From Bacillota bacterium (lineage in GTDB: Bacteria > Bacillota > Dethiobacteria > DTU022): a stretch of DNA of 64,000 nt. Each line of letters starts with the position of its first letter. The first letter of the stretch is position 1. Location of the stretch: assembly GCA_011389985.1 (NCBI GenBank), contig JAABTH010000008.1:62001-126000 (forward strand). Direction: 5' to 3'. The notes beneath the pieces were generated by a model, which worked only from the letters and a program-made list of their open reading frames with translations, was not told the origin of the DNA and searched no databases. The position numbers and the translations under genes are program-made. Below, one piece after another: positions 49,967 through 53,111 of the stretch.

Positions 49967-51442
49967 TTACATAGTCCCCTTAAGCAACCGGCTCCAGATC
50001 CGCCTTGATTCCGGTAAGAAAATTACTAAAACAGTAAAAATTTCAAGGCGCCCGACAATCATCATTACCGCCAAAAGCAGCCGGCCCACAGATGGTATAA
50101 CCTGGTAAGTGTGGGTTGGGCCGACCCCGGCCAAACCAGGTCCTACATTACCAATTGTCGCTGCTACTGCAGAAAATGAAGTGGTACCGTCAACACCCAT
50201 TATCGTTAATAAAAGGGCCGCTGCTGCAGTTAACAAGAAATAGATAATACCGAACCCCATTACCGGTCTTAACACTTCTTCTCCTATATGCTGTTTACCC
50301 ATCTTTACTGAAGAAATTGCCGATGGGTGCACCATACGGTAAAGCTCTCTGAAAGAATACTTAATCATGAGCATCCAGCGAGCCTGTTTTATCGAGCCGC
50401 CGGTTGAACCTCCACAGGCACCCAAAAACATCAATAACAATAATAACATGCGAGAAAAATGAGGCCATACATCATAATTTGCGGTTGCATATCCTGTAGT
50501 AGTAGTGATTGATACTACTTGGAAGGCGCTTAACCTTAAAGCAAGGAAAAAATTCCCTTCATACATTTGAAGAGTATTAAATGTAACAAACGTAATCGCA
50601 GCCAAGATTACAGCAAAGTAAAAACGTAGTTCCGGGTTTTTAAATATCTTAAAATCACCACGAAAAAACCTGAAATAAAGAGCAAAATTTATGCCGGCAA
50701 AGAACATAAAAAATATAATAACTACTTCTGCCATTGGATTGTTGAAAGCAGCCACACTGGCATTATATGTGGAAAATCCGCCAGTAGGCATAGTAGTAAG
50801 GGCGTGAGTGAGAGAGTCATATAAGCCAAGCCCGCATAACATTAATAAAAAAGTTTGAGCAACAGTAAAAGAAACATAAATAATCCATAAACGCCGAGCG
50901 GTTTCAACAACCCTTGGAACAACCCTCTCTGCAACCGGGCCGGGAATTTCAGCTTTAAACATGGTCATACTGCGAAAGCCAAATTTAGGCAGTATAGCCA
51001 GAAACAAAACAATTATCCCCATACCACCTAACCACTGAGTAAAAGCCCGCCATAACAGCATCCCTCTGGGTAAAACCTCCACATCGGAAATCAAGGTGGC
51101 ACCAGTGGTTGTTATTCCTGATACAGCTTCAAAAAAAGCGTCAATAAAACTACCTTCGAACAAACCGAAAAAATAGTAAGGAAGAGCGGCAAAAACACCG
51201 GCAATAAACCAGGCCAGCGTAACAAGGGTAAAATTTTCAACTATACTGAGCTCTTTTCCGCGAGAAGGCGTAAAATACCAGAACAAGAACAACCCGATCC
51301 CAGCGGTAATCAGTATTGCTTTAACAAAGGCAATGCTATCAGACCCCTGATCAGCCACAGATAGCAAAGCAGATAATAACATAGTCAAGGCCAGAAATAG
51401 GAGCATTATGCCCATAAGATAAAAAATGCGAAAACGGCGCAA
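49967..51442 (-). CDS. trkH: Trk potassium uptake membrane subunit
   Basis: A 491-residue TrkH/KtrB-type channel with about ten helices and four pore loops. Selectivity-filter-like segments include VSGITTTGATL, TTMPTGGFSTYN, TTTGYATANY and ATIGNVGPGL. GACGGSTGGSIKQARWM is the typical cytoplasmic loop. It imports K+ with the cytosolic TrkA regulator. TTG start after GGGAGG. It follows trkA by 50 nt and falls under the same leader. Confidence 0.94.
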   Translation of the reverse strand: MRRFRIFYLMGIMLLFLALTMLLSALLSVADQGSDSIAFVKAILITAGIGLFLFWYFTPSRGKELSIVENFTLVTLAWFIAGVFAALPYYFFGLFEGSFIDAFFEAVSGITTTGATLISDVEVLPRGMLLWRAFTQWLGGMGIIVLFLAILPKFGFRSMTMFKAEIPGPVAERVVPRVVETARRLWIIYVSFTVAQTFLLMLCGLGLYDSLTHALTTMPTGGFSTYNASVAAFNNPMAEVVIIFFMFFAGINFALYFRFFRGDFKIFKNPELRFYFAVILAAITFVTFNTLQMYEGNFFLALRLSAFQVVSITTTTGYATANYDVWPHFSRMLLLLLMFLGACGGSTGGSIKQARWMLMIKYSFRELYRMVHPSAISSVKMGKQHIGEEVLRPVMGFGIIYFLLTAAAALLLTIMGVDGTTSFSAVAATIGNVGPGLAGVGPTHTYQVIPSVGRLLLAVMMIVGRLEIFTVLVIFLPESRRIWSRLLKGTM

Positions 51443-51492: not shown

Positions 51493-52896
51493 CTATTCTT
51501 CAATCTGAATTAATTTATTACGTATAAATTCTCTTCCTTCAACACCACCATTCATGGCAAAGTATCGATCCAGCTTGGCGCTTACTTTCGGAACAGCAAA
51601 GACAACCAAGTGATCTCCTGGTAATAACTCAGTTTTGCCATTCGGAACTATAACTTGATCCCTGCGGACAATTGAACCGATCAGCATTCCATGAGGCAAA
51701 TGGGCTTCTGCAATTGTTTTCCCCACTACTTTTGCCGTCTCTGGAAGGACAATCTCAAAAACCTCAGCCTTCTCATCCTGTAGTATTGAAAGCGCAATTA
51801 CATCTTCTCGTCTTGTCAGACGATTAATCTGGGCAGCCGCCATCAGCCGGGGGTTGATCAGACTATCAATTCCAAGAGTATTATACACTGGAACATACTG
51901 TGGTTTCATCACTTCACAAATAATTTTTTTAACGCCAAACTGTTTGGCCAGTAAAGCGCCAACAATATTGCTGCGATCATCACCTGTGGCAGCAACGACC
52001 GCATCAGCCTGATCAGTATCTTCTTCCCTCAGCATGGCTATTTCGTTAGTATCTCCCTGTAAAACAAGTGTTTTCTTCAGATCCCGACATAACCCCTCGC
52101 ATCGCGATTCATCTTTTTCGATCAGTTTTACATTAAAAGGTTGTTTGCTATCTTCTAACAATTTAGCTAACTGGTAGGCGATCATACCGCCCCCAAGTAT
52201 TGTAACCTGATGAACCCTGGTTTTTTCATGATGAAGCAGGGAACTGATGTCCTTAAGAGTACGGGTATCACCCAACAGATATATTTTGTTGCCCGGTTTT
52301 ATAACGTCACGCCCACCGGGTATGACAAACTTTCCGTCAGGATTACTTATACCGACTACTATACAATCAGGACCAAGTGGTAATTTAGAAAGAGGCACTC
52401 CGATTATATCAGCCTCAGATCCTACGGTTACCCCCAGCATCATTACTTTACCCTGGTTAAAATATTCAATTTCACTCGCCTCGGGGAAATGGAGCATCTT
52501 TGATATTTCCATTGCAGCGACACGTTCCGGGTTAATAATTATATCAATACCAAGTTGCTTTGGCGTCAATACAGAAGACTGATTAGCGTAACCCGAATTA
52601 CGAATTCGGCATACAGTGATCGGAACAGAATACTGCTTGGCAAGCATACAAGCAATAATATTAACTTCATCAACCTGGGTTACTGCAATAAGCATATCAG
52701 CTGTTTTAATTCCGGCTTTCTCTAAAACAGCAGCATTAGCCCCATTATCTTCAATTACCATAACATCAAGCGATTCTCTATATCTTCTCGCTTTTATTTC
52801 ACTTTTTTCTATAACCACTACATCCTGATGCTTTTCCGACAGGTTACGAGCTACTTCATAACCAACTCCGCCCCCGCCTACAACTATTATATGCAC
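51493..52896 (-). CDS. trkA: Trk potassium uptake regulator
   Basis: A 467-residue protein with two RCK units: nucleotide-binding GGGGVGYEVARNLSEK at residues 6-21 and VTILGGGMIAYQLAKLLE near 232, each followed by a TrkA_C domain. It gates TrkH by binding NAD(H)/ATP/ADP. GTG start 8 nt after GGAAGG. The start lies only 25 nt past a terminator-like hairpin in its leader, implying control by premature termination. Confidence 0.95.
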   Translation of the reverse strand: MHIIVVGGGGVGYEVARNLSEKHQDVVVIEKSEIKARRYRESLDVMVIEDNGANAAVLEKAGIKTADMLIAVTQVDEVNIIACMLAKQYSVPITVCRIRNSGYANQSSVLTPKQLGIDIIINPERVAAMEISKMLHFPEASEIEYFNQGKVMMLGVTVGSEADIIGVPLSKLPLGPDCIVVGISNPDGKFVIPGGRDVIKPGNKIYLLGDTRTLKDISSLLHHEKTRVHQVTILGGGMIAYQLAKLLEDSKQPFNVKLIEKDESRCEGLCRDLKKTLVLQGDTNEIAMLREEDTDQADAVVAATGDDRSNIVGALLAKQFGVKKIICEVMKPQYVPVYNTLGIDSLINPRLMAAAQINRLTRREDVIALSILQDEKAEVFEIVLPETAKVVGKTIAEAHLPHGMLIGSIVRRDQVIVPNGKTELLPGDHLVVFAVPKVSAKLDRYFAMNGGVEGREFIRNKLIQIEE

Positions 52897-52921: not shown

Positions 52922-52950
52922 AAAAAAAGAGACAGCGGCTACGCTGCCTC
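52922..52950 (-). terminator. Attenuator terminator just upstream of trkA
   Basis: On the minus strand GAGGCAGCG (52950-52942) pairs with CGCTGTCTC (52937-52929) around TAGC, followed by seven U. Its 5' arm can instead pair with the 3' side of the upstream aptamer-like element. An ordinary terminator for the FAH gene is less likely, because a promoter lies between them. Confidence 0.82.
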
Positions 52951-52980
52951 ATCAGGGAGAAAAATTTAAAAAATATATAC

Positions 52981-53070
52981 CTGACCGGCAGCCCTTAAGT
53001 TCTTTTTTAAAAAAACGAGAACCCGGGGCTAGCGGCTCTGCTTAAAAGCAGGTATGCCTTTGCGGTCCAG
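52981..53070 (-). promoter_or_regulatory. Candidate riboswitch aptamer of the trkAH leader
   Basis: A roughly 90-nt three-way junction. P1: CUGGACC (53070-53064) with GGUCAG (52986-52981), one bulged G. P2: CUGCU/AGCAG (53051-53038). P3: AGCCC (53030-53026) with GGGCU (52994-52990), extended by GUUCU/AGAAC. An antiterminator is possible: GCUGCC (52992-52987) with GGCAGC (52948-52943), plus nested UCAGG (52984-52980) with CCUGA (52956-52952). That pairing breaks P1 and the terminator together. It resembles GEMM-I in layout but lacks its GNRA loop and core string. The ligand is unknown. Confidence 0.65.
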
Positions 53071-53082
53071 TTAACTTTCTTA

Positions 53083-53111
53083 ATTATAAACGATCATAGT
53101 GGTGATGACAA
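53083..53111 (-). promoter_or_regulatory. Promoter of trkA-trkH
   Basis: On the minus strand TTGTCA (53111-53106), a 17-bp spacer and TATAAT (53088-53083). Transcription should start near 53076, a few nt before the aptamer-like element. Confidence 0.75.

Follow-up and report, generated by a model that had tools for sequence, protein, structure and literature searches.

A candidate trans-acting small RNA, probably born from a c-di-GMP riboswitch, in the trkA leader of a Bacillota family

The structured leader that precedes trkA and trkH in this Bacillota genome raises the question of whether it serves the genes that follow it. An earlier note had read it as a candidate riboswitch of unassigned class controlling trkA-trkH. 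The window examined here, i.e., the whole 64,000-nt stretch analysed, is part of a draft genome of 1.9 Mb, whose nearest named relatives are MAGs carrying the labels Bacillota, Syntrophomonadaceae or Dethiobacter, with sample names that are often of sediment type. Comparison of the leader with its homologues leads us to consider it probable that the element is a trans-acting small RNA (sRNA) born from a c-di-GMP riboswitch, for which candidate targets can be predicted.

Leader architecture and predicted folding

The features on which the argument draws are listed below, in the order of the minus strand.

53083..53111, minus strand: promoter, TTGTCA - 17 nt - TATAAT, with 11/12 consensus matches (-35 TTGTCA, 53111-53106; 17-nt spacer; -10 TATAAT, 53088-53083)
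52982..53066, minus strand: 5' domain, a three-way junction closed by P1 (GACCG/CGGUC), from the fold and homologous copies
52980..52992, minus strand: GCUGCC...UCAGG, a 3' strand able to pair with GGCAGC and CCUGA (antiterminator)
52949..52964, minus strand: seed strand UUUUUCUCCCUGAUGA, C-rich and mostly unpaired, its last two bases starting the hairpin
52922..52950, minus strand: invariant terminator hairpin GAGGCAGCG-UAGC-CGCUGUCUC (9 bp and a 4-nt loop, 52950-52929) followed by U7 (52928-52922)
51493..52896, minus strand: trkA, the next gene downstream, its GTG at 52896 lying 25 nt past U7 (NCBIfam TrkA, 454.8 bits vs a cut-off of 293)
49967..51442, minus strand: trkH, from its length, its position after trkA and TrkH-family matches (339.7 and 305.5 bits, each under its curated cut-off)

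The minimum-energy fold of the leader comprises the P1-closed three-way junction and then the terminator hairpin. At 164 nt, the leader folds better than 200/200 shuffles (z -3.4); the junction taken by itself (102 nt) stands out less (z -2.4, with 4/200 shuffles equally good). An alternative, nested pairing joins GCUGCC (52992-52987) to GGCAGC (52948-52943) and UCAGG (52984-52980) to CCUGA (52956-52952), exactly as the earlier note had described it; the promoter, three-way junction and seven-U terminator 25 nt before the trkA GTG are likewise where that note had placed them. When forced into the alternative pairing, the fold is about 6 kcal/mol worse (-43.3 vs -49.1 kcal/mol), and junction plus terminator is thus the predicted default. 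Pairing of the GCUGCC...UCAGG strand as antiterminator would, in this model, also mask the seed. According to predicted unpaired probabilities most bases of the window seed are free, and fold prediction leaves the seed of the minimal RNA of relative G031 mostly unpaired as well. With P1 cut away from the window fold, UCAGG pairs with the CCUGA of the seed, and a fold of the G013 copy without P1 forms a longer hairpin that masks the seed. Because P1-less folds hide the seed, P1 closure is modelled as the event that would free the seed and favour RNA release.

The same anatomy could belong to a purely cis-acting device, i.e., a leader of riboswitch or attenuator type that may still sense a ligand and governs trkA-trkH through termination and read-through, with the conserved 3' end as its expression platform. 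The window retains a complete nested antiterminator and P1, trkA directly follows the conserved end in 18 genomes, and a search for a second minus-strand promoter between that end and trkA found none. Read-through control of trkA in cis is thus possible, also side by side with an sRNA role. The terminator/antiterminator exchange that the earlier note had made the basis of an OFF switch holds in the window; among homologues, the nested antiterminator is present in only 9/24 copies at the window's site and 4/6 at the other site. Mutual exclusion of terminator and antiterminator is therefore not conserved among homologues, the window and 12 other copies having both. Unlike the antiterminator, the terminator hairpin hardly varies in the alignments, and the same is true of the C-rich strand that precedes it. 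For these reasons and those given below, we regard a cis-only explanation as unlikely. The window's genome also holds a second trkA (G000:C5:25459-26802; 65% identical), which the element does not precede because it is single-copy in that genome.

A decayed aptamer and an invariant 3' module

The 5' domain of the window copy has the P1-closed three-way junction architecture of the c-di-GMP-I class and retains AAAGGCAuACC, P1 and GGGCUGCCGGUC; it lacks the GNRA loop (a UUUUAA-type loop is present) and the GACGCAAAGCC core (best match 8/11). Against RF01051 and RF03167 the window copy gives no match at gathering, at E<=10 or at E<=5, and an Rfam search of the leader assigns no family, the best match being L20_leader (E 0.028; 22.6 bits vs a cut-off of 58.7). 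This and the other weak matches (mmgR (suhB), PinT and ncr982), with E 0.03 to 4 overall, are far under cut-off and were taken as chance, although most of these families are sRNAs that combine a terminator with a C-rich strand. The ydaO/yuaA, DUF1646 (Na+) and nhaA riboswitch models gave no match either, and we set aside an aptamer for K+, Na+ or c-di-AMP, ligands that the earlier note had entertained and that find no Rfam support.

Homologous copies proved more informative. Directly before the 3' module, seven relatives carry an aptamer above an Rfam cut-off: against c-di-GMP-I-GGC (RF03167; cut-off 59), G026 scores 72.1 bits, G013 70.5 bits, and G023, G017, G022 and G019 60.4-69.4 bits, with G037 at 58.8 bits against this model and 59.5 bits against RF01051 (cut-off 35). 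From this Rfam class, the relatives with intact aptamers are predicted to bind c-di-GMP. In the remaining copies the aptamer score fades from 24 bits to none. The window junction is, as judged from sequence, a diverged c-di-GMP-I (GEMM-I) aptamer by descent. The Rfam check advised in the earlier note thus came back empty for the window leader itself and positive for its homologues, so that the GEMM-I likeness remarked on there becomes one of ancestry, and the label of an unassigned class gives way to homologous copies that are full c-di-GMP-I-GGC riboswitches (60-72 bits).

P1 has been retained despite two-sided changes at 3/5 pairs, a count taken from a small alignment that consists solely of P1 letters hand-picked from predicted folds, and which lends weak covariation support of a supportive rather than blind kind. 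Several copies whose core has decayed have a P1 lengthened to 7-10 bp, as expected if the stem serves as a cap and not as part of the sensor. Conservation and covariation in homologous trkA leaders had been the touchstone of the original riboswitch proposal; there, the aptamer core is not conserved and P1 covariation is weak, and it is the terminator module that is strongly conserved. Lost c-di-GMP signalling was rejected as the cause of aptamer decay, given 10 GGDEF matches in the window's genome and three c-di-GMP-I-GGC matches elsewhere in it.

Other c-di-GMP-I riboswitches of the family have a conserved platform, UUUGUCGGUCCCUCUGAAGGAGGGACUUUUU, and lie just before small signal-peptide ORFs (L211 (G000:C13:114700-115600), L212-L216 and L221-L223); the UUUGUCGGUCCCUCUGAAGGAGGGACUUUUU hairpin seems to carry a terminator-like stem and a Shine-Dalgarno sequence (SD) together. 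The fair conservation of these platforms, too, where the SD lies within the hairpin, speaks for the cis-only explanation.

The conserved part of the leader is its 3' module, UUUUUCUCCCUGAUGA plus the terminator: when trkA leaders are compared across relatives, TTTTTCTCCCTGATGAGGCAGCGTAGCCGCTGTCTCTTTTTTT stays and most other leader sequence drifts. A pattern search (<=3 mismatches) found the 31-nt core once per genome in 26/71 genomes of the order, all of them from the window's family; 23/26 cores are identical, as are 20/20 of those adjoining trkA or kef. A covariance model run over 98 genomes of the class added four diverged copies and nothing convincing elsewhere, bringing the total to one copy each in 30/43 family genomes from 15 genera. 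A second covariance model, run on a 398-genome sample of the phylum, recovered family members only, the module being absent from about 390 others. Two weak covariance-model matches were discarded, one in G043 (the terminator after a rubrerythrin gene) and one in G004 (the antisense of the ribosome-binding site (RBS) of an M23-hydrolase gene, i.e., the target site itself; see below). Nearly all copies have a TATAAT box at a comparable distance, and TTGTCA is common to most.

This degree of identity does not come from recent divergence, because fourfold-degenerate trkA sites, compared between the window and 18 relatives, are only 26-36% identical (saturated). A repeat or mobile element is ruled out by the single copy per genome. 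The terminator module is conserved far beyond a terminator's own needs. Even in the most diverged copies, which vary in the loop and at two positions of the C-rich strand, both stem arms are unchanged, including a G-U pair. A short conserved peptide, MRQRSRCLFF, can be read from an ATG inside the module (in the window, ATG AGG CAG CGT AGC CGC TGT CTC TTT TTT TAG), and we accord it a negligible probability: no SD precedes the ATG, one-base changes in loop length shift the frame in G017, G019 and G022, and the stop is lost where the U-run has 8 T.

The genomic neighbourhoods of the 30 copies bear directly on what the module serves. Eighteen are flanked by an FAH-type hydrolase gene and trkA, two are followed by a kef-type antiporter and then trkA, three (G028, G029 and G031) lead to holA in a slot without trkA-trkH, and one is at a contig end; the other six, whose aptamers are all intact, converge with a GH57-type gene and have no close downstream gene on the same strand (the GH57 and kef labels are our own, from protein sequences). 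In G031, the promoter runs directly into the module, with no aptamer. On this distribution, the module persists independently of trkA. Control of trkA-trkH, as claimed in the earlier note, accordingly loses its standing as a conserved role, given that the module is kept where trkA-trkH is absent, in six genomes where no same-strand gene accompanies it, and in one where it has no aptamer. These same contexts weigh against a cis-only device, as does the decay of aptamer core and antiterminator beside an invariant terminator.

By M23-hydrolase protein identity, genomes with the GH57 site are the more distant ones (about 43-53% vs 60% or more), and for this reason the GH57 site with its intact aptamer is probably ancestral. 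Ligand-controlled read-through at that site might have given an RNA antisense to GH57, the trkA copies then being relocated remnants. The six convergent intact-aptamer copies fit such an antisense riboswitch, and c-di-GMP riboswitches showed the strongest tendency towards antisense arrangement in a published survey (PMC9943018). This explanation nevertheless accounts neither for the invariance of the module after it left GH57 nor for the target complementarity described below, and we consider it highly improbable as an alternative to the sRNA; an antisense role could have existed alongside the sRNA role at the ancestral GH57 site.

Candidate targets of the C-rich strand

Exact complements of the seed (TCATCAGGGAG) were searched in 28 module-bearing genomes. 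Non-self matches fall mostly inside ORFs; eight are at RBSs, some of them in orthologous genes of different genera. The overall excess, 53 non-self exact seed complements vs 5 for the reversed pattern, is not used as evidence, since the reversed pattern is no composition-matched control and the bulk of the matches are in ORFs. As the candidate targets were first found by complementarity, the discovery matches are not independent, and the evidence consists of the orthologs added later.

The first candidate target is a PcsB-like M23 hydrolase gene, whose product has an M23 peptidase domain and a PcsB-type coiled coil (Pfam) and which, in the loci read, follows an FtsX-like gene (recognised by eye). 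CAGGGAGG is present in the RBS of 28/29 orthologs, with a predicted duplex with the module of up to 16 bp. The second is a secreted-protein gene, "KYYD", which has no Pfam match and carries CAGGGAGG in the RBS of 14/14 orthologs; in both cases orthologs share history, so that the counts overstate independence. In three loci read (L374:17385-18332, L376:16079-17155 and L377:10592-11623), the KYYD gene converges with a pilC-type gene, the last of a type IV pilus cluster; there are also several KYYD matches of greater distance per genome. The background frequency of CAGGGAGG is 5/295 among other genes and 5/91 among genes with GGAGG, with the caveats that CAGGGAGG includes the SD itself, part of the match thus being expected, and that start codons for the RBS tests were chosen by a simple SD-based rule. 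In the target RBSs a C-A-G is conserved on the 5' side of the SD core, a feature that control RBSs do not show there, and for both genes the real seed takes first place among 90 permutations of the six bases that follow CUCCC on its 3' side.

The seed is thus conserved in its complementarity to the RBSs of the M23-hydrolase and KYYD genes, as far as sequence comparison goes, and such complementarity to unlinked RBSs is left unexplained by a cis-only device. A single case hints at co-variation of seed and RBS: G022 has a diverged seed, CUCCCUGGUGA (L148), and an M23-hydrolase RBS of its own, CUACCGGGGGGGAUC (L366), for which the duplex is predicted at -21.1 kcal/mol with its own seed vs -14.5 with the usual seed. 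There are also mismatched genomes, i.e., G017 has the module and a poor target site (-12.0 kcal/mol), and G015 and G021 have the target site with no module detected.

In the window's genome, a HIT-domain gene (L369:752-1150, minus strand) is a further candidate target, its RBS CAGCAGGGAGGAAAA giving a predicted duplex of -19.7 kcal/mol. Two other candidates were rejected: pilC as a conserved target, the match being found only in G037, G035 and partly G004, and a transglutaminase-like gene in the window, whose RBS has no match although that of its G031 ortholog does.

The invariance of both stem arms exceeds what the seed needs, and the sRNA does not fully explain the stem. It is here that a protein-binding RNA site (for an antiterminator protein, a CsrA-like decoy or a chaperone) would do better, since seed pairing alone does not require both arms, G-U pair included, to be fixed; the likeness to RBSs would then reflect a shared protein motif or SD convergence. 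That likeness, however, is reverse-complementary and up to 16 bp long instead of being a same-strand motif, and the real seed beats permuted seeds. We therefore judge a protein site improbable.

From gated riboswitch to small RNA

We thus return to the sRNA. The element has its own promoter and an intrinsic terminator, both read from sequence alone, and it combines a conserved unpaired seed with conserved complementary sites, found by complementarity and extended to orthologs. It would constitute a short RNA gene joined to the leader of trkA. Its transcript would begin about 7 nt past the -10 box and, given the default fold, stop at the invariant terminator, for a length of about 155 nt. This RNA would consist of the decayed aptamer as a closed stem, the exposed C-rich UUUUUCUCCCUGAUGA and the 3' terminator hairpin. 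Ancestrally, P1 would have closed upon c-di-GMP binding, releasing the seed from UCAGG and tipping the balance towards the terminator, such that the riboswitch would gate the sRNA. In the window lineage the sensor is a decayed one, and gating of the RNA by c-di-GMP has probably been lost. Transcription, release, in-cell pairing, the sign of regulation and c-di-GMP gating are all what we infer from these features. A more specific proposal, which we hold tentatively and at somewhat less than even probability, is that of a c-di-GMP riboswitch with a base-pairing sRNA as output, in which the ligand unmasks an SD-targeting seed, the ligand-free RNA hides that seed with a target-like UCAGG, and the RNA later became independent of its sensor.

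To our knowledge, riboswitches giving rise to trans-acting sRNAs are rare. That riboswitches can yield RNAs with other roles is established by SreA, Rli55, merRNA and the antisense-type c-di-GMP riboswitches (PMC8079631, PMC3627812, PMC11477304, PMC9943018). SreA, a Listeria SAM riboswitch, acts in trans on prfA, its terminated RNA pairing with the distant mRNA leader and masking the SD (PMC8079631). A terminated riboswitch RNA pairing with a distant mRNA leader is likewise proposed here, with the differences that SreA has another aptamer class and that, in our case, the pairing strand is an invariant pre-terminator linker that fits the SD itself, the aptamer being dispensable. Rli55, in which a B12 riboswitch gates an RNA that titrates the protein EutV (PMC8079631), also has a regulatory RNA rather than an mRNA as output, whereas base pairing with mRNAs is proposed here. 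The merRNA of Bdellovibrio is a c-di-GMP riboswitch RNA without a conserved downstream ORF and is proposed to be a c-di-GMP reservoir (PMC3627812); a reservoir needs an intact aptamer, whereas in our element it is the aptamer that has decayed and a different part that is conserved. In C. difficile, RCd11 and RCd12 are c-di-GMP-I riboswitches upstream of antisense RNAs (PMC11477304). There, as in the survey mentioned above (PMC9943018), a c-di-GMP-I aptamer is tied to an RNA product and not an ORF, with action on the opposite strand or at the same locus in place of the unlinked targets predicted here. RoxS/RsaE use a C-rich single strand to pair with SD sequences in Bacillota (PMC5419742) and share with our element the C-rich strand and 3' terminator hairpin; no riboswitch ancestry is noted for them, and homology, compared through Rfam only, gave no match. 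From the c-di-GMP-I and c-di-GMP-I-GGC classes themselves (GEMM-I; RF01051, RF03167), with which it shares the aptamers of seven relatives and the retained window motifs, the element differs in its unscored, core-less window copy and in intact GH57-site copies that have no downstream same-strand gene. The literature searched held no c-di-GMP-class riboswitch sRNA with RBS targets, an absence that does not prove novelty.

If this account is true, the relatives represent stages, from a gated riboswitch (the GH57-site copies and G037) through a decayed aptamer (the window) to a bare sRNA (G031), and would thus record a candidate passage from a ligand-gated switch to a plain sRNA with the seed nearly constant throughout. 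Direct predicted base pairs would then connect a cell-wall hydrolase and a secreted protein linked to the pilus with c-di-GMP signalling. Ultimately, an aptamer-like fold before a gene is not necessarily that gene's riboswitch.
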